Origin: a virus
Reading direction: 5' to 3' (one strand)
Length of the DNA stretch: 37,333 nucleotides
IMG/VR virus record: IMGVR_UViG_3300027805_000038
Coordinates: 1 to 37,333 of that record
In this document: piece by piece, positions 9,198 to 35,901 of the stretch
How positions within the stretch are numbered: the stretch's first letter is position 1
Layout: each line of letters begins with the position of its first letter
Translations under genes and position numbers: made by a program
The notes under the pieces: model-generated
Database searches by the model: none
Seen by the model: only the letters and a program-made list of their open reading frames with translations
Told to the model about the DNA's origin: nothing

Positions 9198-10799
9198 ATG
9201 GCAAGTTTAAGACTAAAGCGTGGAACAGAGGCACAGCGGTTGACTATTACACCGTTGGAGGGTGAATTAATATATACTACTGACACAAATAAGTTATATG
9301 TTGGTAACGGAACAACACTTGGCGGAGTACTTGTTGCTGGTTTGAGTGGTTATAGTGGCCTTGATGGTACTGCAGGTTCTACTGGTTTGAGTGGTTATAG
9401 TGGGGTCGCAGCCGCGGCCGGCACCAGTGGTTATAGTGGTATTAATGGACTACCGGGTACTAGCGGCTACAGTGGCGTGGGCGGCCCTGGTTTCAGTGGT
9501 TATAGTGGTGAAGCAGGCCTGCCAGGTACAAGTGGTTACAGTGGCGAAACAGGAGCACCAGGTACAAGTGGTTACAGTGGCGAAGCAGGTTTACCGGGCA
9601 CTAGTGGTTATAGTGGCGAAACAGGAGCACCAGGTACAAGTGGTTACAGTGGCGAAACAGGAGCACCAGGTACAAGTGGTTACAGTGGTATTGATGGACT
9701 ACCAGGCACCAGTGGTTACAGTGGTATTGATGGACTACCAGGCACCAGTGGTTATAGTGGTATTGATGGACTACCAGGCACCAGTGGTTATAGTGGTATT
9801 GATGGACTACCAGGCACCAGTGGTTATAGTGGTATTGATGGACTACCAGGTACAAGTGGTTATAGCGGGTTCGACGGTTTATCTGGATACAGCGGCACTG
9901 AAGGTCTTTCTGGCTGGAGTGGATTCAGCGGCCAACCTGGTGGATTGAGTGGTTATAGCGGAGAGTCTGGTTTATCAGGCACAAGTGGTTACAGCGGCGA
10001 ATCTGGAGCCAGCACTAGTGGTTACAGTGGAATTAGTGGATTAGACGGAGTGAGTGGATTCAGTGGTCAGCCTGGCGGATTAAGCGGTTATAGTGGTGAA
10101 ACAGGCGTAAGTGGCTACAGCGGCATTGATGGACTACCGGGTACCAGTGGCTACAGTGGTATTGATGGACTATCAGGTACAAGTGGTTATAGTGGTATTG
10201 ATGGACTATCAGGTACAAGTGGTTATAGTGGTGAAGCAGGCCTACCAGGTACAAGTGGCTACAGTGGCGAAGCAGGTCTACCAGGTACAAGTGGTTATAG
10301 TGGCGAAGCAGGTCTATCAGGCACCAGTGGTTATAGTGGTATTGATGGACTACCAGGTACAAGTGGTTATAGCGGCGAATCAGGCGTGTCTGGATTTAGC
10401 GGATTAGATGGTGTATCTGGATATAGCGGCACTGAGGGTCTTTCTGGCTGGAGTGGATTCAGCGGTCAACCTGGTGGATTGAGTGGTTACAGCGGCGAAA
10501 CCGGTTTACCAGGCACTAGTGGCTACAGTGGCGAAACAGGAGCACCGGGTACAAGTGGCTACAGTGGCGAAGCGGGTCTACCAGGTACAAGTGGCTACAG
10601 TGGCGAAGCGGGTCTACCAGGTACAAGTGGTTATAGTGGCGAAGCAGGTCTATCCGGAGTAAGTGGTTACAGTGGTGTTAATATTAGTGCTATTGTAAGC
10701 GCAAGTGCTCCTGGTTCTCCTGTAATTGGTATGTTGTGGTGGGATGAAAGTGTTCCAGCCTTAAAAATTTACTTGTCTGGCGGATGGACTTTAGTTTAA
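9198..10799 (+). CDS. Collagen-like tail fibre/adhesin protein
   Basis: 533 residues. Residues 1-47 form a phage fibre N-terminal module (LRLKRGTEAQRLTITPLEGE, LIYTTDTNKLYVGNGTTLGG), probably anchoring the protein to the tail. Residues 48-493 are nearly continuous Gly-X-Y triplets, dominated by the 12-residue unit GYSGIDGLPGTS and variants, which should form a trimeric collagen-like rod. Short interruptions (GQPGGLSGYSG, GASTSGYSG) could be hinges. The last 23 residues (GMLWWDESVPALKIYL, SGGWTLV) are a small aromatic hairpin domain shared with other structural proteins here. AAAGGGG precedes the start. The likely role is host binding. Confidence 0.88.
   Translation: MASLRLKRGTEAQRLTITPLEGELIYTTDTNKLYVGNGTTLGGVLVAGLSGYSGLDGTAGSTGLSGYSGVAAAAGTSGYSGINGLPGTSGYSGVGGPGFSGYSGEAGLPGTSGYSGETGAPGTSGYSGEAGLPGTSGYSGETGAPGTSGYSGETGAPGTSGYSGIDGLPGTSGYSGIDGLPGTSGYSGIDGLPGTSGYSGIDGLPGTSGYSGIDGLPGTSGYSGFDGLSGYSGTEGLSGWSGFSGQPGGLSGYSGESGLSGTSGYSGESGASTSGYSGISGLDGVSGFSGQPGGLSGYSGETGVSGYSGIDGLPGTSGYSGIDGLSGTSGYSGIDGLSGTSGYSGEAGLPGTSGYSGEAGLPGTSGYSGEAGLSGTSGYSGIDGLPGTSGYSGESGVSGFSGLDGVSGYSGTEGLSGWSGFSGQPGGLSGYSGETGLPGTSGYSGETGAPGTSGYSGEAGLPGTSGYSGEAGLPGTSGYSGEAGLSGVSGYSGVNISAIVSASAPGSPVIGMLWWDESVPALKIYLSGGWTLV
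9339..10676 (+). repeat. Collagen-like 36-base tandem repeats
   Basis: The dominant unit is 36 bases encoding GYSG-xxG-xxG-TS. Five nearly identical copies run back to back from 9687 to 9866 (unit starts 9687, 9723, 9759, 9795, 9831). The remainder mixes GEAGLPGTS, GETGAPGTS and GESG variants. Such identity favours copy-number change by recombination or slippage. Confidence 0.95.
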
Positions 10800-11552: not shown

Positions 11553-12003
11553 ATTTTAGACTATCATGTATTATAGCAATTTTTTCTTGTATAATTTTAT
11601 AACTAAGTGTATTAAAAAGACCACGATGTAGCGGTTTGGGGTAGGTATTACTATCAATCCAGGAATAACCACAATGTTCTTGATTAAGTAGTGGTGTAAA
11701 TTCATTATCAACTATACAGTAAAAAGTATGATAGATAAAATTAGTATCACCACTAGTAAACTGCTCTATTGGAAACAATTTAGCGTCACTGGGCCAATAA
11801 TTAATTTCTTCTATGCATTCACGCTCAAGTGCTGACCGTAGAGTTTCACTGCGTTCAACTTTTCCACCTGGTAATCCCCATTCGCCTACATTTTTGTGTG
11901 CACGTAATAGAAATAAATGCCTACGTGTATTTTTTGCGTAAAAAATTACGCCAACACTGTTATTGGTACGTTTAGATGACGATTGACCAGTTTCCTTGTT
12001 CAT
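11551..12003 (-). CDS. Nudix hydrolase
   Basis: 150 residues from the ATG at 12003. The Nudix box GX5EX7REUXEEXGU is present as GKVERSE, then TLRSALERECIEEINY, with Asn in place of the last Gly. A preceding WGLPGG is typical. Nudix enzymes hydrolyse nucleoside diphosphates linked to another group; the substrate here is unknown (oxidised dNTP, capped RNA or a signal nucleotide are possible). A TTG at 12015 would add four residues, but ATG with GAGGG upstream is better. It overlaps the end of gp15 by 32 bases, so it is translated with the gp14-gp15 unit. An alternative role is host RNA decapping. Confidence 0.85.
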   Translation of the reverse strand: MNKETGQSSSKRTNNSVGVIFYAKNTRRHLFLLRAHKNVGEWGLPGGKVERSETLRSALERECIEEINYWPSDAKLFPIEQFTSGDTNFIYHTFYCIVDNEFTPLLNQEHCGYSWIDSNTYPKPLHRGLFNTLSYKIIQEKIAIIHDSLK

Positions 12004-13363
12004 ACCAGCCCTCAACTGATTTCATCCACCCCTCGCTTGGTACATATCTATACTGTAGCCCAGAGGTAAGATTTGTTACGTATTGTATACCCATTTCAGT
12101 TGCACTGTCAAGTACTATTGTCCACGCTGTGCCATTGTATTCAATAATAGAATTGGCGGCCGCCCCCAAAGTTAAACCGGGCCAGGCTGACTCGTTTGTT
12201 GAAGGACTTGGATATCCCAATTGTTGAGCAATGTCGTTAAGTATTAAATATCGTTGACCTACAACTGACGCTGGCAAACCATTATCTGGCCATTTTTGCA
12301 GTGGATCAATTGCGCTATTGATCGGATCAATAGTATTTTGTGGTAAGGTATCAATATCAACATTAAACAGTAAAAATCTATCATCAAGTGGATTGTATGC
12401 TATGGTGCCCTTAATTTCAGTTTCTAGATATGGGTTCTGTAGAGATATCATACTAACACCCTCACGTATTACACCATAAGCATTTAATAGAGCCTTCCAA
12501 TATATACGGGTATCTGGTGCAGGCTCGCTATCTAGGCTAGAATTAGATGGGTAGAATGGTTGATCTTCTGGTAGTAGTTGTAGTTGGCCATTTATTAATA
12601 ATAATTTATAGCCATATGGTGTAATTTTTTGTCGTGTACCTAGTAGCAGATCCTCATCTTCAATGTCTTCTCGGTATTGCCCACGAAAAATACTGGCAAT
12701 AATTCGTTGAATAATTTTCATTTTAACAACTTTAACTGGACTACTAAGCCAGATTGGCATATAGAATTTCCAACTCATAACATCAATGGGATTTCCTGTA
12801 CCCATTGGTATGCTACGACTAGTAAAGGTTAACCCGTCCTGATAAACTACACTTAGACTAGTCCAGTCAATAAAATTATCAGTGCTTTGTAATTCCATAC
12901 TAGGATTAAATAGTGTACCTAATTGCTCCAATAGTTCTAATTTTTGATTGTAGTTGGTAGTCCAAAAATCAACTTGTACTCTTAGTGTGTATGGAACCGG
13001 CATTAATCTTTCTACTGTAAATGCGTTACCTTGAGTAGTCTCAAACTCGCCGGTTTCATCATTGTAGGCTCTTTGTCTTACGTTCATTTTATCGACGAAG
13101 TATGGTTCTTGTGTGCGCCGCTGATCATATTCAAGTCCAGTAATATAGTAAGTAATAAGTGGCGCACTAGGCATATTACTGGCACTATTATTGCTTATAA
13201 TTGTAGATGCTTGCCTACTTGAATCTCCATACATTATTGGTACACGTTTAATTATAGGATTATTATTTGGATCAACACCCGATGTAACTTCCCACTGTGA
13301 AAAAATACGTGCAAACTGTATTAAAAAACGTTTTATTTGATTGTCGTAAAAATAGGCTGCCAT
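11972..13363 (-). CDS. gp15: Proximal tail sheath stabilisation protein gp15, extended
   Basis: The first 200 or so residues follow T4 gp15: AYFYDNQIKRFLIQFARIFS, IKRVPIMYGD, YYITGLEYDQRRTQEPYFVD and VDFWTTNYNQKLELLEQLGT. gp15 caps the tube and sheath at the neck and joins tail to head. T4 gp15 has 272 residues, this one 463. The extra C-terminal part carries two aromatic hairpin modules (about 369-419, GQRYLILND to YNGTAWTIVL; 428-463, ending EQGNWSIVI) similar to those in gp14, gp18 and the fibre. It lies 20 bases after gp14 on the minus strand. There is no Shine-Dalgarno; TCTAAATA ends five bases before the ATG. Confidence 0.87.
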   Translation of the reverse strand: MAAYFYDNQIKRFLIQFARIFSQWEVTSGVDPNNNPIIKRVPIMYGDSSRQASTIISNNSASNMPSAPLITYYITGLEYDQRRTQEPYFVDKMNVRQRAYNDETGEFETTQGNAFTVERLMPVPYTLRVQVDFWTTNYNQKLELLEQLGTLFNPSMELQSTDNFIDWTSLSVVYQDGLTFTSRSIPMGTGNPIDVMSWKFYMPIWLSSPVKVVKMKIIQRIIASIFRGQYREDIEDEDLLLGTRQKITPYGYKLLLINGQLQLLPEDQPFYPSNSSLDSEPAPDTRIYWKALLNAYGVIREGVSMISLQNPYLETEIKGTIAYNPLDDRFLLFNVDIDTLPQNTIDPINSAIDPLQKWPDNGLPASVVGQRYLILNDIAQQLGYPSPSTNESAWPGLTLGAAANSIIEYNGTAWTIVLDSATEMGIQYVTNLTSGLQYRYVPSEGWMKSVEGWYEQGNWSIVI

Positions 13364-13368
13364 AATTA

Positions 13369-13376
13369 TATTTAGA
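13369..13376 (-). promoter_or_regulatory. Late promoter variant (minus), TCTAAATA, 5 nt before gp15 ATG
   Basis: In the 20-base gap between gp14 and gp15 the minus strand reads TCTAAATA-TAATT-ATG. No ribosome binding site is present. The same octamer at the same spacing precedes the second HNH gene. Confidence 0.5.
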
Positions 13377-13383
13377 TATATGA

Positions 13384-15261
13384 TTAATCGGGTTGTATTT
13401 TAAGTACCTGACTTAGGCCTTGGCGTGAAGGTATTGTGCCTCCTTGAGCAGTTGGTACTACCGCAGTATTATTAATAAATGTACTAATCTGGCTTTGATC
13501 GGTTGCGGTAAGTGTAGGAGGTGTACGAACATTACGTGATATCTCTACCCACATTTTGCCATTAAATCTGTAAAGTTTTTGTGGTAGGTAGTCTAAGCGA
13601 AGAAAATAATCACCTAATTTAGGATTTGCAGGAAATGCTATACCTGTTCCAACAGGTTCACCATTAGGCGCAAACTCATCACCTGTTAAATAACCAGCAA
13701 GCCAGCCAAAATTCCGTGGTGTAAATCTTCGTATAAAAAGAAATCTTGGATCGCAGTCTGCCAAATAGTCCATTTCTGGGGTTGGCGTGCCGTCAAAATC
13801 GAACGCAACCTGTATACCAGAACCTGCAGGCATAGATACTAGCGTTTGGGTATTGATTGTTATTGTTTTTAGGGTTTGATTAACTCCTGTAATTTTTGCG
13901 GTAGGAGAAAAAACGGAATTAGGCGTTCCGTTTTCACTAAACAATGTTAATTTTATAGGTAAGTCAACCGTAACCCAGGGTGGTATGTTTTGTAATGGGA
14001 TTACAGATGAATTTGCTTGTACAAATTGAGCAGTTGTTAATATAAAATTTACAAATTGATCGCTGGTTGCAAATGTATTATCTGCTGTTCCGTATGGTCC
14101 ATATTGAGTAGTAGATCCTAGTGGAACGGTAAGGATGTGACTATCACCGACCATTGGTCCACTACCACCGTCTGTGGTTACTGGCGCACTAGTAGCGGTA
14201 GAAAGTAAAACGCTGGTACCAGCAACAATATTTGGTTTATTACTGGGATTAATATTTTTTGGTACATGCAGTGCTGTGCTACTATTACGATAAGCAGGAT
14301 TTTGTATCCTGACAATAGACATAGCACCAGATGTAACTGCTTGGTTTGCTATTATTAAATCAACTGGCGGTGCAGGTACACTTCCGTCATATGTTGGTAC
14401 AACATAAAGTTGAGTAACATCATAACCAGATTTTGGCACTAGTCTGGCCGCCTCTTCTAAATTAGCATTATTAATTTCTATGGTTTTGTTGTATCTTCCA
14501 ATAATATCACGCAAATTTTGCTCGGTGCTTAACACCCAGTATGCTGGATCAGGAGGACTAACACCAGGTGGTACAGGTTGTATAGGCGTATAAATTTTAT
14601 CACCCCAAGTCACTGTGTACCCCGGTTCATAACTCTGTGTTGGATCCCAATCACCGATATAATTGTCTTTGTTAATTGGTTGATTGAGTATATCTTGAAA
14701 TTCTTGACTATCAACTAATGGTTCACATTTAATCCGCCATAGATGAGGCCACCAGGTTTGACTAAAACCTTCACTTGCATAGTTGGCGTCAGTTATTTGA
14801 TAATAACGGCGCAAACCAATTGGTAGTTGTTCATTAAGGGGGTGGTAATCAGTAAGATGCGGCAGTTCAAACACATCTCCTACCATCAATTTACGTCCGA
14901 TAACGTCTATCATGTCATTGTAATGTACAGTAATAAAAACAATGTCGTTAGTTAAAAACAGTCCAAACTGGCTTAAATCAAAATCTAAATTCTGTACATT
15001 ATAGTGACCACGTAACCGATATATGTTTGGGTCATATTTACGATCCCTATTTTCAAGAAATAGGAGATCCTGTATATTTGTAGCAGTATCATCTGGATAA
15101 TGTGGCAGAGTAAAATCTTGGGTTGTACTTGGGTTATTTGCACCTATGTATTTGTGTATATACAAATCGGTAGCACCCACCGTAAACATTTCACTAATGG
15201 TTCTATCAATAAAACGGTAATCGTTTGTTTTTCTTTCTTTCCAGAGTGATAAACGTGGCAT
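13384..15261 (-). CDS. gp14: Neck protein gp14, expanded
   Basis: The N-terminal 190 residues show the gp14 neck pattern: QDLLFLENRDRKYDPNIYRL, LFLTNDIVFITVHYND, LMVGDVFELPHL, RRYYQITDA, WWPHLWRIKCEPLVD. gp14 with gp13 forms the collar that joins head and tail. T4 gp14 has 256 residues; this has 625. Insertions include a CBM5/12-like motif at 203-243 (GDWDPTQSYEPGYTVTWGDK, then YTPIQ...PPDPAYWVL) and a C-terminal hairpin module at about 550-574 (GDYFLRLDY...FNGKMWVEIS). It is the first gene of the minus-strand unit gp14-gp15-Nudix, so it is inverted relative to gp13. A late promoter lies 21 bases upstream. Confidence 0.85.
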   Translation of the reverse strand: MPRLSLWKERKTNDYRFIDRTISEMFTVGATDLYIHKYIGANNPSTTQDFTLPHYPDDTATNIQDLLFLENRDRKYDPNIYRLRGHYNVQNLDFDLSQFGLFLTNDIVFITVHYNDMIDVIGRKLMVGDVFELPHLTDYHPLNEQLPIGLRRYYQITDANYASEGFSQTWWPHLWRIKCEPLVDSQEFQDILNQPINKDNYIGDWDPTQSYEPGYTVTWGDKIYTPIQPVPPGVSPPDPAYWVLSTEQNLRDIIGRYNKTIEINNANLEEAARLVPKSGYDVTQLYVVPTYDGSVPAPPVDLIIANQAVTSGAMSIVRIQNPAYRNSSTALHVPKNINPSNKPNIVAGTSVLLSTATSAPVTTDGGSGPMVGDSHILTVPLGSTTQYGPYGTADNTFATSDQFVNFILTTAQFVQANSSVIPLQNIPPWVTVDLPIKLTLFSENGTPNSVFSPTAKITGVNQTLKTITINTQTLVSMPAGSGIQVAFDFDGTPTPEMDYLADCDPRFLFIRRFTPRNFGWLAGYLTGDEFAPNGEPVGTGIAFPANPKLGDYFLRLDYLPQKLYRFNGKMWVEISRNVRTPPTLTATDQSQISTFINNTAVVPTAQGGTIPSRQGLSQVLKIQPD

Positions 15262-15282
15262 TTAATTAGGCAACCTTTACTG

Positions 15283-15290
15283 TATTTATC
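15283..15290 (-). promoter_or_regulatory. T4-type late promoter (minus) for gp14-gp15-Nudix
   Basis: GATAAATA on the minus strand, 21 bases before the gp14 ATG, with AAAGG in the leader. It is divergent from the sigma70-type promoter at 15310. Confidence 0.7.
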
Positions 15291-15309
15291 CCACTAATTT
15301 CCAAAAAAA

Positions 15310-15338
15310 TTGACAATAAATAACCGGTCAGATATAAT
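15310..15338 (+). promoter_or_regulatory. Perfect sigma70-type promoter for 15367-18211
   Basis: TTGACA (15310-15315), a 17-base spacer, TATAAT (15333-15338): both hexamers and the spacing are exact consensus. The spacer also contains AATAAATA (15315-15322), a late-type motif. It probably allows early expression of the non-structural cassette by unmodified host polymerase. Confidence 0.85.
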
Positions 15339-15366
15339 GTATTCCATTAGTTAAATTGGAATTACT

Positions 15367-16560
15367 ATGGCAACCCGTACACAAAAAACTAAGCGTTTGA
15401 ACACTGATGGGGCATTTATTATGCCTGAATTGGTAGTACGTGATGTGGATACAAAGTATACTGGAGGAGAACCTTATTTCCCGGTACAACCAGAATCAGA
15501 ACGTAGGGCTGGTGCACTTTCGGCTGCCTTTAACTGGTATAGCAGATTCTTTGATAAAAAGATGGCTAAAGAACAACTGGCAGTATACTTGGAGAATACG
15601 GAAGTAGATTCTAACAATGGGATTACTCTTGCTAAGAAGTTGCGCCGAGTAGATGACAAGGAAATTATGCAGACATATGGCTGGCTAGCCAGGCTAAGTC
15701 TACGTGGATTAAAGTTGACCAGTGAAGAGCAAGCGAGGTTGACCAGCGAAATTGAAAGGCTGCTACAAACAGTGCATAAGCCAGTTGTAGTCGAACCAGT
15801 ACAAGAGGTAAAGACTAATCGCCCTAATGTTCAGGAAGTGATGCGTGATAGGGCAAGAGAGGCTGCTGGAGAGTTGGAAGGCTGCCTGGATGAGTTTATT
15901 ATTGCCGGTGCAAAGGCAGCCAATACTGCTACTAATGCCGTAGGTATTCTTTCTGAGCGTAATATTCTGCCACAGCATATTAGTATGCTCACAGAGGTCT
16001 GGAAAAAGAAGTTGACCGAATTCAATCAAGTATTGGAAGGTCGTGATCCACAACTAGTAGAAGCATATAGCCATTACAGTAAGCACCAAATTAAGGCTGT
16101 TGTAAAATTTATCGAGGGTGTTCTTGCCGGCCTAGACAGTTATATTAATGTTAAGAAGGCAGCAAAAACACCACGTAAGCGTAAGGCAGTTCCTCCAGAA
16201 AAGCAAGCCGCCAAGATTAAGTTCCTAAAGCAGTACCCTGAACTGGGGTTGACCAGTATTCATCCAGCCAAAATTATCGGTGCGGTTGAGGTCTGGGCAT
16301 ATGATACTGCAAAGCGTAAGTTGCACTACTATGTGGCTGACAGCCATGTTGGCACTCTTGCGGTTAAGGGTTCCACTATTCTAGGCTTTGATACTGGCAA
16401 AAGTGGCGTAAAAACAGTGCGTAAGCCAGAGGATGTACTTAAAAAGTTGATGGCTGCTGGCAAACCAGCGGCACGTAAGTTGTTTGATGCTATTAAGGCG
16501 GTACATACTCAGCCTAATGGTAGAACTAATGATGGTCTAGTTTTCTTAAAGGCGTACTAA
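15367..16560 (+). CDS. Conserved-looking basic protein of unknown function
   Basis: 397 residues, mostly helical, rich in Lys and Ala, without membrane segments. It starts with ATG after weak GGAA. The N-terminal part (about 30-140) is charged; the middle (about 150-260) is helical; KTPRKRKAVPPEKQAAK (near 265-285) is a basic linker. The C-terminal domain (about 290-397) has predicted beta-rich and helical parts: IIGAVEVWAYDTAKRKLHYY, GSTILGFDTGKSGVKTVRKP. I recall similar C-termini in unannotated proteins of marine T4-like phages but cannot verify this. It is first in the unit with the methyltransferase and MazG-like genes, behind a perfect host-type promoter. DNA binding or host takeover is a guess only. 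Confidence 0.75.
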   Translation: MATRTQKTKRLNTDGAFIMPELVVRDVDTKYTGGEPYFPVQPESERRAGALSAAFNWYSRFFDKKMAKEQLAVYLENTEVDSNNGITLAKKLRRVDDKEIMQTYGWLARLSLRGLKLTSEEQARLTSEIERLLQTVHKPVVVEPVQEVKTNRPNVQEVMRDRAREAAGELEGCLDEFIIAGAKAANTATNAVGILSERNILPQHISMLTEVWKKKLTEFNQVLEGRDPQLVEAYSHYSKHQIKAVVKFIEGVLAGLDSYINVKKAAKTPRKRKAVPPEKQAAKIKFLKQYPELGLTSIHPAKIIGAVEVWAYDTAKRKLHYYVADSHVGTLAVKGSTILGFDTGKSGVKTVRKPEDVLKKLMAAGKPAARKLFDAIKAVHTQPNGRTNDGLVFLKAY

Positions 16561-16564
16561 TACG

Positions 16565-17836
16565 GTGGTGGATTCTGATTTATCCAATTATATTAGAAGT
16601 AATGTAGACAGCCGTGGTATACCGTCCATAGAAAACAGTGAATGGTGGATGGTTACTGGAAGATGGAGTCAAGCCCAGATAAAGGCTGCCCTAGCAAACT
16701 ATATTGTAGATTGTGCAGTACCATTCCCCCTAAAAACTATGGAGCCAGCGGATCTGGAAGAATTATTCTTACGGTTCTGCAAAACCAGCCATCTAGGTGA
16801 ATATAAAGATTTTGGGGTGGTGCATGAACGTCAAGACTACCGGTACCCTTATAGTGCTAATCCTCTAGGCGTTATAGATAAAAGTCATGCCTTTAATCCT
16901 GTAAGTAATTACTTCCAGCAAGAAAATCGTATGCGGTGTGGCAGCAATGCTGCTGATAGTCCTTGGAGCATATGGCATTCTAAGGAAAAATTACTTAAGA
17001 TGAATTGGCATTTCTGGCGGAAGGGCGCCCTAGGTAAAAGCAATATAGGCGAGTCTACTTTCCGTAGTGCATTCCGTATTGGTACATATACTGCAACTCA
17101 ATTTAAGCCATCAGTTGCTAAAGCCCTATATGAAAAACACGGCGCAGTAAATGTGTTAGATACTAGTTGTGGCTGGGGCGATAGATTGGCAGGATTTTAT
17201 GCCACGCCTTGTACGAAACTATACGTGGGTTGTGATCCAAATCCGGAAGTGTTCGCTACTTATAAGCAGCAATGCTTGGAGTATGAACGCATGTTAGGGG
17301 TCAAGGCGGTGGTTATTGAAGGTCCTAACTATTTTATATGCAGGGGTAATAAAACAGTTGAGGTATGGAATTTACCAAGTGAAGATGTTGATTGGACAAA
17401 GTATACTGGTCTATTTGATTTTTATTTTACTAGTCCTCCATATTACGAAACTGAGCGTTATTCTGCTGCAAATAGTGCAGGGCAAAGTTGGGTAAGGTAT
17501 CCAGACTTCCACTCATGGAAGAGTTTCTTTTTTGGAGTGAACCGTGCTGTTTGGAATACCCTGGCAGATGGTGGATATATGATGTTGAATATCATTGACC
17601 CACGCACTGGTTCTAAACGTTTGCCGTTATGTGATGATATGGTAGATGATATTCTTACCTATAGTGACAGCAATTACCTAGGAAAAATAGGTATGCGTAT
17701 GCAGGCTAGACCACATGCTATAGTGGGTACACCGGCTAATAGTGTTTTTGTGGAACCAATTTGGGTTTTTCGTAAAGGGTCAGCCAGATATGATCCTGCT
17801 GCAACGCCTCTACAAGATTTATTTAAGATAGGATAA
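16565..17836 (+). CDS. SAM-dependent DNA methyltransferase (N4-cytosine/N6-adenine type)
   Basis: 423 residues. SAM-binding motif I is VLDTSCGWGDRLAGF (about 197-211), the acidic motif II lies in VGCDPNPE (D224), and the catalytic motif IV is TSPPYYE (289-295). S/TPPY-type catalytic loops methylate exocyclic amino groups, N4 of cytosine or N6 of adenine; protein or RNA targets are less likely. The first 150 residues, rich in Trp and Tyr, may bind DNA. GTG at 16565 (or 16568) is the likely start, as the first in-frame ATG is about 29 codons later. It lies 4 bases after the unknown gene and 3 bases before MazG. No cognate restriction enzyme is nearby, so self-protection or regulation is likely. 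Confidence 0.82.
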   Translation: MVDSDLSNYIRSNVDSRGIPSIENSEWWMVTGRWSQAQIKAALANYIVDCAVPFPLKTMEPADLEELFLRFCKTSHLGEYKDFGVVHERQDYRYPYSANPLGVIDKSHAFNPVSNYFQQENRMRCGSNAADSPWSIWHSKEKLLKMNWHFWRKGALGKSNIGESTFRSAFRIGTYTATQFKPSVAKALYEKHGAVNVLDTSCGWGDRLAGFYATPCTKLYVGCDPNPEVFATYKQQCLEYERMLGVKAVVIEGPNYFICRGNKTVEVWNLPSEDVDWTKYTGLFDFYFTSPPYYETERYSAANSAGQSWVRYPDFHSWKSFFFGVNRAVWNTLADGGYMMLNIIDPRTGSKRLPLCDDMVDDILTYSDSNYLGKIGMRMQARPHAIVGTPANSVFVEPIWVFRKGSARYDPAATPLQDLFKIG

Positions 17837-17839
17837 TTT

Positions 17840-18211
17840 ATGGTAACAAATGTATTTGCCGATCAGGCAAAATTTATGCAAGCCTGTGATCAATCAACAG
17901 GATCATGGAATGAAGCGCAATTCAATCTCTACACTAGATTGATTGAAGAAGAAGTAAGTGAGTTATGGGCTGCCAATGCTGCAGGTAATAAGACTGAATG
18001 CCTTGATGCTCTAATTGACATATTGGTGGTAACCGTTGGTGCCCTACATTCTCTTGGCGCGGACGGTGAAGGTGCATGGGTTGAGGTAATGCGTACTAAT
18101 TTTGCTAAAATTGACCCAGAATCTGGTAAAGTACGTAAGCGTGAAGATGGCAAAGTACTAAAGCCTGATGGATGGCAATCTCCACAACTGGCAAAGTTCC
18201 TACATAATTAG
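17840..18211 (+). CDS. MazG-like nucleotide pyrophosphohydrolase
   Basis: 123 residues. The all-alpha NTP pyrophosphohydrolase motif is visible: RLIEEEVSEL (E36-E41) and, after a short loop, ECLDALIDILV (E53, D56, D60), the metal-binding EExxE...ExxD pattern. The C-terminal segment GKVRKREDGKVLKPDGWQSP is typical of phage MazG-like proteins. Such enzymes cleave (d)NTPs to monophosphates or lower alarmone levels. It follows the methyltransferase with a 3-base gap. With gp1 and the Nudix gene it points to control of the nucleotide pool. Confidence 0.85.
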   Translation: MVTNVFADQAKFMQACDQSTGSWNEAQFNLYTRLIEEEVSELWAANAAGNKTECLDALIDILVVTVGALHSLGADGEGAWVEVMRTNFAKIDPESGKVRKREDGKVLKPDGWQSPQLAKFLHN

Positions 18212-18238
18212 GAGGTTGTTGCTTATCTGTTCCGGTAA

Positions 18239-18246
18239 GATAAATA
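18239..18246 (+). promoter_or_regulatory. T4-type late promoter for gp13
   Basis: GATAAATA, 22 bases before the gp13 ATG. A small stem (CTATA-GTT-TATAG, 18249-18261) lies at the predicted start of the transcript. Confidence 0.7.
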
Positions 18247-18268
18247 CGCTATAGTTTATAGGTGAATT

Positions 18269-19024
18269 ATGGCGGATCTAACCGAAATGAAGCAGAAGTT
18301 GTTTAGGAATGTTGAACTACGTTTAGGTGGTGGCATTGTAGATGTTGAGTTAGATCCAGAACATTACGAGGCCGCCTACAACTATGCTATAGCAACATAC
18401 AGACAACGTGCCCAGAATGCATATGAAGAGTCTTACAGTCTACTAACTATAGAAAAAGACCGTAACAGTTATATCCTGCCACAGGAAATAATGAATGTAC
18501 GCCAAGTTTTTAGGCGAACGGTTGGTCTTGAAACAGGACCATCAGCCACAAGTTTTGACCCATTCAGTAGCGCCATACTTAATACCTATCTATTAAACTA
18601 TAACTATGCTGGTGGGTTAGCAACCTATGATTTCTACGCAGGCTATATTGAGTTGGCTGCACGTATGTTTGGTGGTTATGTAATCTTTACATTTAATAAA
18701 GTTACAAAAGAAATACAGTTTGTACGTGACTTTAAGGGGTCTGGTGAAAAAGTTTTGTTATGGACTGACAATCTAAAGCCAGAAATTACACTACTTCAGG
18801 ATGTTAATATAGCAAACTGGATTACTAGTTGGACGTTAACGCAGTGTAAAATGATTATTGGTGAAGCACGTGAAAAATATGCCCAGATTGCTGGCCCAGG
18901 TGGTGGTTCATCTCTAAATGGTCAGGCAATGAAGGCAGAAGCCAAAGAGGCATTTACTGAATTGATTGACGAATTAAAACGGTATGTGGATGCATCACAG
19001 CCACTAACTTGGATAATCGGCTAA
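18269..19024 (+). CDS. gp13: Neck protein gp13
   Basis: 251 residues. It has the clear gp13 pattern of marine T4-like phages: LRLGGGIVDVELDPEHYEAA, DRNSYILPQEIMNVRQVFRR, FDPFSSAILNTYLLN, GGLATYDFYAGYIELAARMF, KVLLWTDNLKPE and EKYAQIAGPGGGSSLNGQAM. gp13 forms the ring at the portal side of the neck and seals the filled head. Its usual partners gp14 and gp15 are on the opposite strand about 3 kb upstream, so the T4 order 13-14-15 is broken. AGGTGA precedes the start. gp1 follows after 36 bases. Confidence 0.94.
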   Translation: MADLTEMKQKLFRNVELRLGGGIVDVELDPEHYEAAYNYAIATYRQRAQNAYEESYSLLTIEKDRNSYILPQEIMNVRQVFRRTVGLETGPSATSFDPFSSAILNTYLLNYNYAGGLATYDFYAGYIELAARMFGGYVIFTFNKVTKEIQFVRDFKGSGEKVLLWTDNLKPEITLLQDVNIANWITSWTLTQCKMIIGEAREKYAQIAGPGGGSSLNGQAMKAEAKEAFTELIDELKRYVDASQPLTWIIG

Positions 19025-19053
19025 TTGACACCGTTCTCTGGTTGATGTATAGT
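19025..19053 (+). promoter_or_regulatory. Sigma70-type promoter abutting gp1 ATG
   Basis: TTGACA (19025-19030), 17-base spacer, TATAGT (19048-19053). The hexamer ends seven bases before the ATG at 19061, so transcription would begin at or next to the start codon. No Shine-Dalgarno is seen. Confidence 0.65.
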
Positions 19054-19060
19054 ATCAACC

Positions 19061-19681
19061 ATGATTATTTCAATTTCTGGACTTATTGGTAGTGGCAAAG
19101 ATACTATTGCCGATTACTTGGTAAATCGTCACGGGTTCCGTCGTGAAAGTTGGGCAGGTACTCTTAAAGATGCTGTTTCAGCCGTGTTTGGTTGGGATAG
19201 AGATTTATTGGAGGGAAAAACGCCACAAAGCCGTACGTGGCGGGAATTACCCGACGGGTGGTGGTCAGATCGGCTAGAGCAAATAATTACTCCTAGAAGG
19301 GTTTTACAGGAGTGGGGCACTGATGTGGCCAGGAATGGTTATCATGATCAAATTTGGATTGCCAGTCTAGAAAATAAGTTACGCCACGTAGAGGAAGATG
19401 TTGTAATCACTGATAGTCGTTTTCCAAACGAAGTGTCAAGTGTTAAGCGTATGGGTGGTATTACAACCAGGGTTAGTCGTGGTGCTGACCCCGCGTGGGT
19501 AGCTGAGTACCTTTCTGGTGGTGTAACTATTGATTTTACTAGTAAGTGGAAAGAAGTACATGCTAGTGAGTACAGTAGTGTAGGCTTGCAGTATGACCAC
19601 CACATTGATAATAATGGGTCTTACCGTGACCTGTACAAACAAGTCAATGATCTACTTCAACATCACCGGGTTTCCAGGTAA
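19061..19681 (+). CDS. gp1: Deoxynucleoside monophosphate kinase gp1
   Basis: 206 residues. P-loop SGLIGSGKDT at residues 6-15 (Lys13), then a T4 gp1-like body: WAGTLKDAVSAVFGWDRDLL, TPRRVLQEWGTDVARNGYHD, VVITDSRFPNEV. gp1 phosphorylates dNMPs (including modified ones in T4) to dNDPs for DNA synthesis. It has an apparent sigma70-type promoter of its own directly against the ATG, which fits early expression within a late region. Its last 38 bases overlap the 3' end of the antisense HNH gene. Confidence 0.92.
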   Translation: MIISISGLIGSGKDTIADYLVNRHGFRRESWAGTLKDAVSAVFGWDRDLLEGKTPQSRTWRELPDGWWSDRLEQIITPRRVLQEWGTDVARNGYHDQIWIASLENKLRHVEEDVVITDSRFPNEVSSVKRMGGITTRVSRGADPAWVAEYLSGGVTIDFTSKWKEVHASEYSSVGLQYDHHIDNNGSYRDLYKQVNDLLQHHRVSR

Positions 19682-19988
19682 AGTGCCTGCGTTTAACTAC
19701 CTCCACACAGCACAGGCATATTGATCTAAGATTTATTAGATCACAGTTGTTTAGATCACTGTCAATGTGGTAGACTAATATTTGACTAGAAAAAACACTG
19801 CGAAATCCACAGATATCGCAGGATGTTTTTTTCTTATAACCGGCTGTTTTCCATTTAGGATCTGGTGGCTGCAGTTTTCTACCACGCCTAATACACCCCT
19901 CACACCGGCTACGGTAGTGCCGGACACCATCTTTGGTGTAATTGTTTGCTGCATAGTTCTTATTGCAGACTTTACAGAATGGGCGCAT
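19644..19988 (-). CDS. Small HNH endonuclease-like protein with zinc-binding Cys pairs
   Basis: 114 residues from the ATG at 19988. The N-terminal zinc ribbon is FCKVCNKNYAANNY...RCEGC. It is followed by CDICGF...LVYHIDSDLNNCDLINL and ICLCC, the pattern of short HNH proteins in T4-like phages (CxxC-HID-N-CxxC). The last His/Asn region is somewhat divergent (CCVEVVKRRH). An in-frame ATG at 20060 would add 24 residues. The later ATG is preferred because TCTAAATA ends five bases before it, as at other leaderless genes. It lies antisense between gp1 and the sheath gene and overlaps gp1 by 38 bases. A mobile homing gene is likely. Confidence 0.78.
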   Translation of the reverse strand: MRPFCKVCNKNYAANNYTKDGVRHYRSRCEGCIRRGRKLQPPDPKWKTAGYKKKTSCDICGFRSVFSSQILVYHIDSDLNNCDLINLRSICLCCVEVVKRRHFTWKPGDVEVDH

Positions 19989-19993
19989 GTTAT

Positions 19994-20001
19994 TATTTAG
20001 A
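19994..20001 (-). promoter_or_regulatory. Late promoter variant (minus), TCTAAATA, 5 nt before HNH ATG
   Basis: The minus strand reads TCTAAATA-ATAAC-ATG (19988). Octamer and spacing are identical to those before gp15, and no ribosome site is present. Confidence 0.45.
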
Positions 20002-20048
20002 TAACTCTTTGCAAAGAGTAGATTAAGGGCTGGTTTTTTCCGTGTTGT

Positions 20049-20056
20049 GCTAAATA
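20049..20056 (+). promoter_or_regulatory. Late promoter candidate for sheath gene, GCTAAATA
   Basis: GCTAAATA, 59 bases before the gp18 ATG. The predicted start near 20062 coincides with the base of the stem-loop at 20063-20088. Confidence 0.5.
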
Positions 20057-20062
20057 TCATTA

Positions 20063-20088
20063 ATGGTATAGTAGTGTTTCTATACCAT
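20063..20088 (+). promoter_or_regulatory. Leader stem-loop upstream of sheath gene
   Basis: ATGGTATAG (20063-20071), loop TAGTGTTT, CTATACCAT (20080-20088): nine perfect pairs. It is not followed by a T-run, so it is not a terminator. It begins about one base after the start predicted from the late motif at 20049. A clear AAAGGAA lies downstream before the ATG. Confidence 0.6.
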
Positions 20089-20115
20089 AAAATTTAATAG
20101 ATAAAGGAAACAAAT

Positions 20116-23100
20116 ATGGCACTAGTATCACCAGGCGTAGAAGTTACAATTATTGACCAGAGTCAATATCTACCAGCCGCACCTGCATCAGTACCCCTAG
20201 TTATTTTAGCTACAGCACAAAACAAAGCAAATGCTGCTGGAACTGGCATTGCAGTTGCCACTACTGCTGCCAATGCTAATAAGTTATACCGTGTAACAAG
20301 CCAGCGTGATCTAGTTACGCTATATGGTAACCCATTCTTTTATAAGACAACTAACGGTACTTCTCTACAAGGTTTTGAATTGAATGAATATGGACTATTA
20401 GCCGCTTATAGTGTGCTTGGTACAACCAATCTATGCTATGTTCTACGGGCAGACATTGATTTGGCTGCTCTAGTAGGTAGGACAGGTCGTCCAACTGGTG
20501 CACCAGGTGACGGCACATACTGGTTAAACGCTACACAGAGTACATGGGGTATTTTTGAATTTAATCAGAGTACCGGGCTATTCACAAATAAAGTGCCATT
20601 ATTCATTAATGATACCTCTGATATGGTTGACCCTGCTACTGGACAGCCAATGGCATCCTTAGGTAATATTGGTGATTATGCGGTGTCATTTATCACAGAT
20701 GCAAATAATTTTACGGTTGCTGAACAGCCAAGTAATTATGATACTTACTGGTACAAAGTAGGTTCTGATTCAAATAACCCGTTATATAATACATGGGTTG
20801 AATTAGGTAGCCCAGATTGGAGAGAAAATTGGCCAACAGTGCAGGGCACTGAAACTAGTCCAACACTAGTTGCCACACAAGGTTTTTCCATCAATGGCGT
20901 ACCAGTAGTAGCATCAGGTACAACACTCTCATCATTTGTTGGTGATATTAATTCTGCTTTAATTCCTTTTGTTACTGCTGCCGAAGTAGATGGTAAATTA
21001 TCACTTTATAGTTCAAATGGTGATTCTATTGTAATAAACAATCCTGTTGGTCCAATACTACCTCAACCAATTTTTACTTTATTAGGTATTAGTGCAGGTA
21101 CATATAATGCAACAGAATTATTTTATGGTACAAATGCCCAGCAACCTGCATGGCGTACTACCGACTTACAACCTCATCCAACTGGATCAGTGTGGATTAA
21201 AACTAATTCTGCCAACGGTGGAACAAATTTAGTTTTAAGTCAATATAGTGCCGCTACCGCAACATTTACTTCTGTAAATTGCCCACTTGCCACAAATGAC
21301 TGGACTATAACAAATAGTTTAGATTCTGCAGGTGGAAAAAATATAGACTTGGGTGCAGTTTATGCACAATATGATGCTGGTGGTCAAACTTTTAATTCCC
21401 CAATACAGTTGTTCCGTCGTGCAGACAGTGGTCCAGCTGTGTTTATTGGAGACAATACAGCCCCTGTATTCGCCAATAATGCAACATTTGACGTTCAGGT
21501 AAGTCAGCCAGGTTCCGCAAGTTTAACACCTCCCGGCACATACACTGTTACTATGCCAGCCGTAGGAACACTAGATGCAACAGACTTTGTTACTGCTTGG
21601 ACAGCAGCAAATATTCCATATACTACAGCATCCGTATCCACCACTGGTGCGATTGTTCTTACCCACACCGAAGGTGGTGTAATAATAATGGATGATGGCG
21701 GTGTAACAGTCCCAGTAAGCGCAGTTACTGCTGCCGGTTTTGAAATTGGCGCAACTGTTGGCGATTGTACACCAGGTGCTAAGTGGGGTCCATATAAAAC
21801 AATTACAACTGATAACGTAGTACAATCATCAACAACTGGTACTGGTGTTGGTGCAGAATTTGATATTACCTCTACCGGTTACGATGTTGTGACAATTGGA
21901 ATCGCTAATGGTGGTAGTGGTTTACCAGGCGAAGAGTATGCAGTAGATGATACAATTACTTTAGTAAATTCTATGGTATTAAAGGTAACCTCTATTAACG
22001 GCTCTGATCAAGTTACTGGTGTAACGTGGATTGCCGGCTCACCCGCGCCTGCTTATTCTGTGCAGTTAAGTAATTGGGTGCCAATGGCATATGTACCAAA
22101 TGCTATCTCTCCAACAGTTTATCCAACAAGTGGAACATTATGGTACTACAGCGTAGTAAATCAAGTAGACATTATGACCAACATGGGTGGTTCATGGATG
22201 GGTTACAAAAATGTAAGTTACGCTAGTAACGGTTTACCACAGGCTTCAGGTTCATTTGATACAGATCCTAATGGACCAATCCTTAGTGCAAGTGAGCCAA
22301 CTACTCAATCGGATGGCACCGCGCTTACTTATGGTGATTTGTGGATTGATACTAACGATCTTGAAAATTACCCAGTAATTAGTCGTTGGCAGGATGTAAG
22401 TGGTGTAGATCAGTGGGTATTAATTGACAATACTGATCAATTAACAGAAAATGGTATAGTATTTGCCGATGCCCGTTGGGGTGCAGACGGTACTATAGAT
22501 CCAGTATATGATCCACTACCATCAATTGTTGAGTTGCTAGAAGAAGATTATGTTGATCTAGACGCACCAGATCCTACACAATACCCACAGGGAACACTAC
22601 TGTTTAATACACGCCGTAGTGGTTACAACGTTAAACGTTTTGTAACTAATTATTTTAATGCAAATAGTTTTCCTGATCAAGTATTGCCAGCGGAAACAAG
22701 TGCATGGGTTACAGCAAGTGGTAATTTAAGTAATGGTTCACCATATATGGGTCGTAAAGCTCAAAGAGCAATGGTTGTTCAGGCATTAAATGCCGCAGTT
22801 AATACTAATGTGCAAATACGTGAAGACGACACATTCTTTAACTTAATTGCTGCACCTAATTATCCAGAGTTGCAACCAGCACTAGTTACCCTAAACAATG
22901 ATCGTAATGAAACTGCTTACATAATTGGTGATACACCAATGCGCCTTGCAGATAATGCTAATGACATTGTTAATTGGGCACTTAATACCTCAAATGCAAC
23001 AAGTACTGGTGAACAAGGATTAGTCACACGTAATACATATATGGGTCTATATTACCCAAGTGGTATTACTACTGACTTATCAGGTAGCGAAGTGGTTGTT

Positions 23101-23703
23101 CCTTCAAGCCACATGATTATGCGTACTATGATCTATAATGATACGGTTGCATATCCATGGTTTGCACCAGCAGGTCAGCGTCGTGGTACAATTGACAACG
23201 CATCTAATATTGGTTATATTGATTCTGCTAGTGGCGAGTTTATTGTAACAAAAAATCGTGTACAACTACGTGATGTTCAATATACAAACTTTATCAATCC
23301 TATAGCATTCTTTACAAATATAGGTTTATTAAACTATGGTAATAAGAATAGTTTTGATAGTCAAAGTGCATTGGATAGAACTAACGTGTCCCGTCTAGTA
23401 TGCTATCTACGCTACAATTTACAAATTGCGTTACGTCCATTTATATTTGAACCTAACGATGATTTGACACGCTCACAGGCTAGAAGTGTTGTACAAACTC
23501 TACTAGCAGATATCCAGTCTAAGCGTGGAATTTATGACTATCTAGTGGTATGTGATGAAAGCAATAATACACCTGCCCGTATAGATCGTAATGAATTATG
23601 GGTTGACGTGGCGATTGAGCCAACTAAAGCGGCAGAATTTATCTATGTACCAGTTCGTATACTTAATACTGGAGAAATTGCTGGGTTAGGACAGAATGGG
23701 TAA
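20116..23703 (+). CDS. gp18: Contractile tail sheath protein gp18, greatly enlarged
   Basis: 1195 residues against 659 for T4 gp18. The N-terminus (MALVSPGVEVTIIDQS, SVPLVILATAQNKANAAGTG, YGLLAAYSVLGTTNLCYVLR) and C-terminal third (GRKAQRAMVVQALNAAV, NYPELQPALVTLNNDRNETA, YPWFAPAGQRRG, VSRLVCYLRYNLQIALRPFI) are classical sheath. The middle (about 125-845) is an insertion rich in Thr/Ser/Gly. It holds about five aromatic hairpin modules: near 131-148 (GDGTYWLN), 186-229, 357-386 (GSVWIK), 673-697 (GTLWYY...GGSWMGY) and 740-771 (GDLWIDTN...QWVLID). These probably project from the sheath surface. It has its own leader with a stem-loop and AAAGGAA. A hairpin follows the gene. Confidence 0.93.
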   Translation: MALVSPGVEVTIIDQSQYLPAAPASVPLVILATAQNKANAAGTGIAVATTAANANKLYRVTSQRDLVTLYGNPFFYKTTNGTSLQGFELNEYGLLAAYSVLGTTNLCYVLRADIDLAALVGRTGRPTGAPGDGTYWLNATQSTWGIFEFNQSTGLFTNKVPLFINDTSDMVDPATGQPMASLGNIGDYAVSFITDANNFTVAEQPSNYDTYWYKVGSDSNNPLYNTWVELGSPDWRENWPTVQGTETSPTLVATQGFSINGVPVVASGTTLSSFVGDINSALIPFVTAAEVDGKLSLYSSNGDSIVINNPVGPILPQPIFTLLGISAGTYNATELFYGTNAQQPAWRTTDLQPHPTGSVWIKTNSANGGTNLVLSQYSAATATFTSVNCPLATNDWTITNSLDSAGGKNIDLGAVYAQYDAGGQTFNSPIQLFRRADSGPAVFIGDNTAPVFANNATFDVQVSQPGSASLTPPGTYTVTMPAVGTLDATDFVTAWTAANIPYTTASVSTTGAIVLTHTEGGVIIMDDGGVTVPVSAVTAAGFEIGATVGDCTPGAKWGPYKTITTDNVVQSSTTGTGVGAEFDITSTGYDVVTIGIANGGSGLPGEEYAVDDTITLVNSMVLKVTSINGSDQVTGVTWIAGSPAPAYSVQLSNWVPMAYVPNAISPTVYPTSGTLWYYSVVNQVDIMTNMGGSWMGYKNVSYASNGLPQASGSFDTDPNGPILSASEPTTQSDGTALTYGDLWIDTNDLENYPVISRWQDVSGVDQWVLIDNTDQLTENGIVFADARWGADGTIDPVYDPLPSIVELLEEDYVDLDAPDPTQYPQGTLLFNTRRSGYNVKRFVTNYFNANSFPDQVLPAETSAWVTASGNLSNGSPYMGRKAQRAMVVQALNAAVNTNVQIREDDTFFNLIAAPNYPELQPALVTLNNDRNETAYIIGDTPMRLADNANDIVNWALNTSNATSTGEQGLVTRNTYMGLYYPSGITTDLSGSEVVVPSSHMIMRTMIYNDTVAYPWFAPAGQRRGTIDNASNIGYIDSASGEFIVTKNRVQLRDVQYTNFINPIAFFTNIGLLNYGNKNSFDSQSALDRTNVSRLVCYLRYNLQIALRPFIFEPNDDLTRSQARSVVQTLLADIQSKRGIYDYLVVCDESNNTPARIDRNELWVDVAIEPTKAAEFIYVPVRILNTGEIAGLGQNG

Positions 23704-31689: not shown

Positions 31690-34600
31690 ATGCCACAACC
31701 AATCTGGGTTACACCTGCTGGAAATTTCGGGGTTTATATTGGTGGATCTCCGCTAAGTAAAACATTTGCAGCAAATCCATCAACAACCGGTAGTACACTA
31801 ACTTATACCAAAATAGGTGGATCATACCCAGACCCGTCATTTATATTAAACGCTGGTACAGGAGTACTCACAGGTACACCGGCTAATGTACCGTTAGAAA
31901 CCCAGTATACTTTTACTCTGCGGGTCACTGAATTTGTCGGTCCTACTTTAATTGGATATAGCGACAGGGTTTTCTCGTTACTTGTTAATCCAGCGCAACC
32001 AACATGGACGACAGCAGCCGGCAATATTGGTTCATACCCAGAAAACGTGCCGATTGCCGCATATAACTTTTCAGCAACACCGTCGGGTGCATATACGTTA
32101 TTGTATGAAAAAATTAATGGTAATTTTCCAAATAATTCATTTACCTTATCTACCGCAGGGGTACTTACTGGTACACCAGGTGAAGTCGGAGAAGATACGT
32201 CATACCCATTTACTATTAGAGTAACCCAGTGGAATGGCCCTATTAATATGGGTTTTGCAGATAGAACATTTTCAATAACGGTGCAAGGAGTTACACCTCC
32301 GACTTTTGACCCAATTTATTATCCGGCCACCACATACTATCCTATTTTTGGTGTATACCCTCTTGGTTTGAATAGCAGCACATGGACTGAATACCAGGTA
32401 TTAATTAATAATCCAGATCCCAATAGTACTGCGATTGTTACAGTTTTTGATGGCAGTTTACCACCTGGCCTTGAAATTAATAGTTCAGGTTTAATACGTG
32501 GTTACGCAGACAATTCTAGTCTAAATTACCAATTTACATTAAAAGTTGAAAGTGTATCAGGGTTTAATACACAAAATTTTTCAATACAGATATTACCTGT
32601 GCCAGCGTTACCAGCCACACCCCCACCAACAATACTAAACACCAGACCAAGATCATTTACAATTTTACCAGCAGACCCAAATAAACCATACTATATTGAT
32701 AGTTCTGGATTAATAGGAGTGTTTTCCCAAGATAACTATTTTATCTACAAAATATTAGGTAATAGTTTTGCTTCAGGTCCGGTATCATATAATATTACCG
32801 GATCATTACCGCTAGGAGTTACAGATAACATAAATTATCGTCCAGATAATACCACTGCAACGGTGGTTGATCCAGGGTTAGGTTATCTAGTGGGTGATAG
32901 TGTGACAATTAGTGGTGCTGATATTGGAGGAGTCACACCAGGTAATGATTTATATTTAACAGTTGTTGCTGTTGATGGCTCTGGTGGAATAACTGAGTTA
33001 CAAGTAAATACGTCTGCACTAACCAATCTTAACGTGGATAGTGAAAATATTTATAGTACAAAAGGAATTGTGGGTGGCACCGGGGTAGGAGCAACTGCAA
33101 ATGTTGCAAAAATTAATGCAGGTTGGATATTAGGTACAATAACAAATAATCCAGCACTGACAGTTGAAACCTACAATTTTACATATACAGCGATAAACAA
33201 TATAAATGGATATACTAGTGATCCTATTAGTTTTTCTATGGAGGTGGTTGCTCAGATAGACAATATACCATTTGATATATCAGTGGTCTGGTTGACTGAA
33301 AGTGCAATTGGCACTATTAATATAGGATCAATAAGTAATTTGGCAGTTGTTGCTGAAAATGTAGGTGGACTTTCTCTAGAATATACTCTGGACTCTGGAA
33401 GTTTACCGACTGATTTGACGTTAAACTCCGATGGCACTATATCTGGAACTGTAGCATGGGAAACAGAATCTACATTGACTCCAGAAGGCGGAACGGTTGA
33501 GTATACATTCACTGTAATTGCTCAGAACATAACTTATCCGGAAATTACATCAACAAAGACCTTCACCTTAAATGTTTACCATAAGTATGGCACTAAACCA
33601 TATGAAAGTTTATATATACGCAGTTTATTTGATATACCAGACAGGAATATAGTTGCAACATTGTTAAACGATGACTATCTAATCCCAGAGCAATTTACTT
33701 ATAGACCAGATGATCCTAATTTTGGAAAAGCGTCTGATGTTGTTTATCAACATATGTATGGGGTACCAGCATCAACGGTTAATGAATATATCACAGCGGT
33801 TGAAAAAAATCACTATCGCCGAAATATTATTTTAGGTCCAATAAAAACTGCTATAGCAAAAGATCAAACGGGAGTCGTGCAATATGAAGTTGTATATAGC
33901 GAAATAGTTGACAACTTAGTAAATAATGACGGAGTATCAATCAGTAAAGAAATTACTTGGCCATTTGCTGTTCCAGTTTATGTTAAGGCACAAATTTCCA
34001 ACATTGTGCGTTTAGGAAATGTAGTAACAGTTACCACACTGGATCAACACAATTTTTCAGATGGATCAGAAGTTATTATTGGAAGTGTATCTGGAGGAAC
34101 AACTCCATTTGACGGCATTTTTACCATAACATCAACCACAACTTATACATTTATTTATAACCAAACGGGCGCAAATGAGTCGGGTGTGATTAATGTTGAC
34201 AGTAAAGCAATATCAAAAGAATTTGAGACCACCTTTTATCCAAATAGTCTAGATAATATGAACAAACAGATAGCAGATGAACTTGGTCAGGATACGCAAG
34301 CAAGCCTACTTCCACTGTGGATGTCTGGACAACAAGAAGATGGTAGTATTTTGGGTTTTACTAGGGCATGGGTAATATGTTATACCTTGCCTGGCTATAG
34401 CAAAATAATTAAAAATAATATAATTTCTCCATTCACTGAACAAATACCAATTTTGAGCACACAAGCAGCAAATAATTTACTAGAGTGTACCAGCACTGCT
34501 GGTTTTTATCCTGGAATGCGGGTTATATTTTCAGGTACAAGTTTTGGCAACATTGTTTTAGGATTCTATTATTATGTTTATACTATAGTTTCAGAAAAAC

Positions 34601-35896: not shown

Positions 35897-35901
35897 CCAC
35901 T

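Follow-up and report, generated by a model that had tools for sequence, protein, structure and literature searches.

A recurrent aromatic hairpin in the tail sheath, neck and fibre proteins of a T4-like jumbo myovirus

The virus record IMGVR_UViG_3300027805_000038, analysed here over its whole length of 37,333 bases and called the window below, carries T4-type structural genes and represents part of the genome of a T4-like jumbo myovirus whose relatives include Atu_ph07, PA5oct and the Rak2/121Q/CBB group. We describe a short, tryptophan-rich aromatic hairpin that recurs in its tail sheath protein gp18, its neck protein gp14 and its collagen-like fibre, and probably also in its tail sheath stabiliser gp15. 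Judged by gp18, gp14 and gp15, the nearest cultivated phages are Sinorhizobium phage Phosso, Agrobacterium phage Atu_ph07 and Pseudomonas phage PA5oct, and the Rak2/121Q/GAP32/CBB group is more distant cultivated kin. A Nudix gene adjoins gp14 and gp15 in the window, PA5oct, 121Q and CBB. In the PA5oct annotation gp18, gp14 and gp15 alike carry a note on electrospray ionisation tandem mass spectrometry (ESI-MS/MS), and are therefore virion proteins in that phage. A first search of environmental contigs returned 22 loci with gp18 relatives, and the alignment search added many more; the alignments comprise 58 sheaths, 66 gp14 and 42 gp15 sequences.

An initial reading of the DNA made without database searches (the sequence-only reading) had proposed that gp14, gp15 and gp18 are enlarged around recognisable cores, and this proved correct. 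Their open reading frames encode 625, 463 and 1195 residues, against 256, 272 and 659 in T4, and the large size of all three is clade-wide. gp18 (20116..23703, plus strand) matches the PHROG tail sheath family phrog_10581 over its full length (E 1.9e-209) and has the Pfam domain Phage_sheath_1C (4.1e-13), and in a structure search 336 of its residues align with a T4-like sheath (Z 29.0), so that it has both the C-terminal domain and the core fold of a T4-like contractile sheath. The core (residues 20-118 and 871-1190) is interrupted by an insertion (residues about 119-870). Profile mapping places residues 57-112 on T4 gp18 41-83 and residues 948-1186 on T4 423-648, which leaves about 835 residues where T4 has about 340, and the insertion occupies the place of T4 gp18 residues about 84-420. 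As had been anticipated for the extra parts, the gp18 insertion is richer in Ser, Thr and Gly (23-38% by segment) than the core (19-22%). The AlphaFold2 (AF2) model of gp18 has a mean predicted local distance difference test (pLDDT) score of 86.4 and the layout of a multidomain (type 3) jumbo sheath, with at least three domains and the additional ones between the N- and C-terminal parts of the core. In gp14 (13384..15261, minus strand), residues 7-187 have the T4 gp14 neck fold (9lu4_M; Z 12.2, root mean square deviation (rmsd) 3.5 over 119 residues), and in gp15 (11972..13363, minus strand) residues 4-236 match the Pfam family T4-gp15_tss (E 2.3e-17), which is present in all 42 aligned members; gp15 relatives of full length occur in PA5oct, Atu_ph07 and Phosso.

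The sequence-only reading had further proposed that these proteins and the fibre share a short pattern, G-D/T-x-W/Y-h-(10-25)-aromatic-x-G-x-x-W-h. Taken literally, the pattern has no match in the 32 window proteins. What the aligned orthologues contain is a looser module. It opens with a proline and, a few positions on, frequently another proline; then come G-[D/T/S], any one residue, an aromatic residue (W or other) and a hydrophobic one, followed by a loop, I/L-x-x-[Y/F/W] and then G-x-x-W-hydrophobic. We interpret it, with moderate confidence, as a structural unit of phage proteins, about 36 residues long, in which three short strands run antiparallel and whose hallmarks are a conserved G-x-W close to the beginning and x-W-h at the end. 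In the predicted structures the strands, in an identical E-E-E pattern, are found at six places in gp18, and the three-strand arrangement between the starting G-x-W and the closing x-W-h is found at these six places and in gp14. The gp18 copies, all on the plus strand, are H1 (residues 124-160, 20485..20595; strands 135-138, 146-150 and 155-159), H2 (183-233, 20662..20814; 188-191, 211-214 and 227-229), H3 (351-388, 21166..21279; 359-362, 374-378 and 383-387), H4 (662-699, 22099..22212; 675-678, 686-690 and 693-696), H5 (725-775, 22288..22440; 742-745, 754-761 and 764-769) and H6 (814-870, 22555..22725; 828-831, 838-843 and 863-866), of which H2 and H6 are classed as probable. The gp14 copy lies at residues 541-576 (13534..13641, minus strand), with strands 552-555, 562-566 and 571-575.

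To compare the copies at the sequence level, a composite profile (A7) was built without the group under test and scored against 93 control segments from the same proteins, whose maximum was 14.5. In this leave-one-out comparison H1 (residues 122-165) scored 35.7, H3 (350-392) 21.7, H4 (660-700) 23.9, H5 (726-780) 36.1 and the C-terminal hairpin of gp14 (538-582) 28.7, all above every control. H2 (13.4) and H6 (13.0) were borderline and not clearly above the controls. Thus, where about five copies had been expected in gp18, four are supported by the held-out profile and two more share the predicted strands at borderline profile scores, and the single copy expected at the C-terminus of gp14 is there. 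Two copies had been expected in gp15. The first (residues about 362-418, 12110..12280, minus strand; segment 360-422 in the comparison), which was outside the training set, scored 22.2 with the full composite against at most 13.1 for controls and is more weakly supported, aligning to the composite mainly along the last two strands; the second (424-450, 12014..12094, minus strand) scored 13.1, equal to the control maximum, and is unproven. From these profile scores, gp15 probably carries one hairpin.

The fourth protein, the collagen-like fibre (9198..10799, plus strand; 533 residues), has an Mtd_N N-terminus (Pfam Collagen 5.7e-65, Mtd_N 6.4e-11), and its predicted C-terminal copy was recovered as well. 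A hidden Markov model (HMM) made from the fibre hairpins of cyanophage P-SSM2 alone finds it at residues 503-533 (10704..10796) with 12.7 bits, against a shuffled maximum of 5.5. P-SSM2 fibres such as PSSM2_024, PSSM2_027 and PSSM2_295 share with the window hairpin the pattern P-x-x-P-x-x-G-x-L-W-W-x ... Y-x-x-x-x-x-x-x-W-V, which also matches PHROG tail fibre families, and their hairpins lie partly between or beside collagen-like stretches.

Since the hairpin segments had been chosen by eye, an unselected comparison was added, in which 46-residue tiles of the gp18, gp14 and gp15 alignments were compared all against all without pre-selection (2320 of 2558 pairs). The best pairs were the two Flagellin_IN-like domains of gp18 (see below) and H1 with H4; H3 and H5 paired with the gp14 hairpin at 20.6 and 20.3, respectively, and the best pair containing neither a hairpin nor an IN-like domain reached 19.0. 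When single hairpins were compared pairwise by profile, part of the pairs exceeded the controls and many did not. The hairpin is also conserved, with a mean column entropy in the sheath insertion of 1.52 for hairpins against 2.02 for the rest (P 2e-10), the core being at 0.98, and four of the six gp18 hairpins have lower entropy than every hairpin-free 40-residue window. The profile scores, the tile scan and the predicted strands all agree with the proposal of one module on sheath, neck and fibre, and neither of the outcomes named beforehand as fatal to it, unlike predicted folds at these places or no excess over random, was encountered in the AF2 strands, the profile controls or the tile scan.

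The hairpin, with the same predicted strand pattern, is shared between proteins throughout the clade. A composite HMM detects one to four copies in the sheaths of Phosso, Atu_ph07, PA5oct, SCTP-2, Vibrio phage 2.275, 121Q, CBB and GAP32, and one to three in gp14 of Atu_ph07, 121Q, CBB and GAP32, and H1 was detected in the sheath of every clade isolate tested. In CBB, 121Q and GAP32 the matches fall in the sheath and gp14 only, a restriction to which we give no weight, orthologues of these very proteins having served to train the profile. On the whole of P-SSM2 the same HMM matches tail fibre proteins, and it finds no hairpin in gp13, gp14, gp15 or gp18 of that phage, in the neck and sheath proteins of T4, or, at E 0.1, in the whole genomes of T4, phiKZ, phage G and S-PM2; as the profile was trained on this clade, such absence elsewhere is weak evidence. 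No Pfam family matches the hairpin, and among solved structures its profile has no significant relative at the sensitivity of the search. The top match, rotavirus VP8*, has an E-value of 0.19 and was treated as chance. By homology to the window gp14, the proteins annotated as 'structural protein' beside gp15 in 121Q (KM507819, 296653-298146), CBB (FDG95_gp234) and GAP32 (GAP32_228) are T4 gp14 neck proteins, and the 121Q one has three detectable hairpins. In Salicola phage SCTP-2 (MF360958), an open frame of 1911 residues at 13210-14340 gives about six weak hairpin matches.

Between the hairpins, the sheath insertion holds other modules. Residues 240-332 (20833..21111) and 450-548 (21463..21759) are two copies of a beta-beta-alpha-beta-beta-beta domain, aligned to each other by hhalign with a probability of 97.9 and a score of 68 (controls at most 14). 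Pfam Flagellin_IN is matched by 5 of 15 gp18 orthologues (best 5.8e-5), the window gp18 itself having no match, and we therefore call the domains Flagellin_IN-like; the tail sheath protein thus contains an internal duplicate. Both are present in the AF2 model together with further beta modules. A GGxGY beta-module (residues 549-656, 21760..22083) differs among relatives. The GGxGY module is common to many sheaths and to a putative tail protein of 1058 residues encoded elsewhere in the window (31690..34866, plus strand), with stretches of about 40 residues that are 55-60% identical between this protein and the sheaths of relatives. In a close relative (locus L009), the sheath has an extra segment at residues about 290-389 that matches residues 744-838 of the 31690-34866 protein (46% identity over 97 residues, E 5.7e-13), which shows that the sheath insertion tolerates the gain of modules. 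This module of about 90 residues, with a weak Pfam E1_FCCH match, is thus found in the sheath of the relative and in the putative tail protein instead in the window, by gain, loss or exchange. These cases indicate an exchange of modules between the outer part of the contractile sheath and other structural proteins.

gp14 likewise carries two further domains, a module known from fibres and a barrel known from tailspikes and tail tips, both within the neck protein. Residues 201-246 (14524..14661) have a CBM5/12 fold (4nz4_A, Z 7.1, rmsd 1.4 over 46 residues; also 1wvv, 8kec and 9rkv), and the corresponding profile matches fibres of phage 7-7-1 (1.1e-6) and the F2 pyocin (8.2e-6); weaker matches are a bacterial chitin deacetylase and chitinases. 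Pfam CBM5/12 is matched in 21 of the 66 gp14 orthologues (best E 7e-4), and the window module scores 13.8 bits against a curated cut-off of 26.2, so we refer to a CBM5/12 fold and not to a family member. The CBM5/12-type modules of phage 7-7-1, cyanophage A-1(L) and F2 pyocin have a fold like that of gp14 residues 201-246, but there they sit in fibres, whereas in the window the module, a putative glycan binder below the Pfam cut-off, belongs to a neck protein. A pairwise score of 18 had suggested that this module is itself a hairpin; the composite gave only 9.3 and the idea was rejected. The second domain, a beta-barrel inserted at residues 405-488 (13798..14049; pLDDT 87-95 over most of the barrel), resembles the Mystique tail tube (Z 10.7), the Chi tail tip (9.9), the LKA1 tailspike (9.1) and the Klebsiella phage K1 lyase (8.7).

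Taken together, we consider it moderately probable that the hairpins are a conserved framework, or connector, carrying changeable outer domains; this fits their better conservation than the intervening parts, their use in unlike proteins and their location where the insertion begins and ends. The hairpin would have been built repeatedly into the outer sheath insertion, once or more into gp14 and probably once into gp15, and would cap the collagen-like fibre. In the sheath, the copies that lie at the start, in the middle and at the end of the insertion may form a rigid framework, whose linkers would hold the faster-changing beta-domains (the two Flagellin_IN-like copies, the GGxGY module and the optional extra module) outside the contractile tail, and in the neck the gp14 hairpin, CBM5/12-fold module and beta-barrel may act in the same role. 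It would be chiefly the changeable domains that touch the host or other parts of the virion, with spacing and stiffness set by the hairpins. Several points weigh against this reading. Sequence HMMs built by leaving one group out, or from the orthologues of one hairpin, miss the held-out copies, so that the evidence for relatedness of the copies comes from profile-profile comparison and from the predicted strands; in an aromatic hairpin this short, homology is not separable from convergence with certainty, and the relationship of the copies, though well supported, is open to some doubt. The gp14 model is of modest confidence (mean pLDDT 63, hairpin 55-69), the outward position of the hairpins is taken by analogy from published models of related sheaths (PMC9230969), and their conservation could instead reflect a conserved ligand.

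Among other explanations, the resemblance could be convergence or chance in Ser/Thr/Gly-rich, beta-rich sequence, as the failure of the literal pattern and of the leave-one-out sequence HMMs might suggest; with profile scores above the controls, strands predicted alike and whole genomes of phiKZ, G, T4 and S-PM2 devoid of matches, we regard this as very improbable. That the hairpins decorate sheath, neck and fibre as weak glycan binders in their own right, glycan binding being a function suggested in the sequence-only reading, is rather unlikely and unsupported. They are rich in aromatic residues and occur together with a CBM5/12 fold in gp14, and weak binding of surface carbohydrates has been proposed for the immunoglobulin-like (Ig-like) domains of sheaths (PMC9230969); however, the hairpin profile has no significant sugar-binding relative among solved structures or in Pfam, and the hairpins are more conserved than the adjacent domains, as would be expected of a framework more than of a variable binding face. 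The one resemblance to a carbohydrate module is the CBM5/12 fold, an element distinct from the hairpin, whose match to it covers chiefly the first strands, and this neck module is the better glycan-binding candidate. A cementing role, with the hairpins packing on neighbouring subunits and on gp14 and gp15 so as to stabilise a large tail, would agree with their conservation and their presence in sheath, neck and probably stabiliser, and with phage 812, in which, as cited in PMC9230969, an additional sheath domain that touches its neighbour has been proposed to give the disk stability. A partner of this kind is lacking for the fibre copy, and we judge this role distinctly unlikely.

The hairpins might also be docking points for the hair-like fibres, or 'whiskers', on the virions of relatives (PMC7247149, PMC5259590, PMC6102473), which we hold to be unlikely. 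The tail of CBB bears such fibres, whose genes are unknown in that phage (PMC5259590), and in phAPEC6, a relative of 121Q, hairs form three rings, placed along the sheath and beneath the collar (PMC7247149). These hairy-tailed Rak2-like phages have related sheath, gp14 and gp15 proteins, with hairpins in the sheath and gp14 of CBB and 121Q, as in those of Atu_ph07; the CBB and 121Q sheaths have about 885 residues and fewer detectable hairpins than the window gp18. Hairs are reported for CBB and phAPEC6, whereas the window phage is known here from its sequence alone. Against docking, the hairs of phAPEC6 are limited to three rings, yet the module is expected on every sheath subunit; no hairs have been reported for GAP32, whose hairpins are the same; the whiskers of Atu_ph07 are seen mainly on the capsid; and the P-SSM2 fibres bear the hairpin far from any sheath. 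A shared attachment code, in which sheath and neck subunits would offer a common docking edge to the hair-like fibres of the clade, possibly pairing with fibre hairpins, seems equally doubtful. Some surface decoration along the tail, as the sequence-only reading had imagined, is plausible, since the insertion's place is what one would expect of an outward-facing region and surface hairs occur on relatives that have the same sheath.

Multidomain jumbo sheaths and the 'hairy' tails of relatives are already published; the recurrent hairpin module is the new part. The sheaths of Atu_ph07, SCTP-2 and RaK2 have been modelled as multidomain, that of Atu_ph07 as type 3 with 1086 residues and 5+ domains (Evseev et al. 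2022, PMC9230969), and in such models the additional domains are often Ig-like and placed away from the tube. The Atu_ph07 sheath is a direct relative of the window gp18 (46.5% identity over 57% of gp18) and shares its N- and C-terminal core, large multidomain insertion and hairpins. The word hairpin is absent from the main text of Evseev et al.; the present analysis describes the repeated hairpin as well as the duplication of the Flagellin_IN-like domain, and a literature search of limited extent returned no earlier account of the hairpin. More generally, tail fibres, neck proteins and other phage proteins are known to shuffle domains among themselves (PMC10684548). Very large sheath proteins and virion hairs are features of the jumbo phages akin to this one. 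A module repeated across sheath, neck and fibres, for which the cultivated PA5oct, 121Q, CBB and Atu_ph07 offer orthologues, shows structural biologists where to direct their attention in these phages, besides providing a profile for a module that has none in Pfam.

Elsewhere in the window, an HNH/NUMOD3 homing-endonuclease-like gene (8001-8792, minus strand) sits between gp23 and the fibre genes. Two proteins (107-1948 and 31067-31687) match chitinase class I (GH19), the former also with a weak VanY match, and an open reading frame of 173 residues (35887-36408) matches part of the bacterial DNA polymerase III alpha NTPase domain (1.3e-7).

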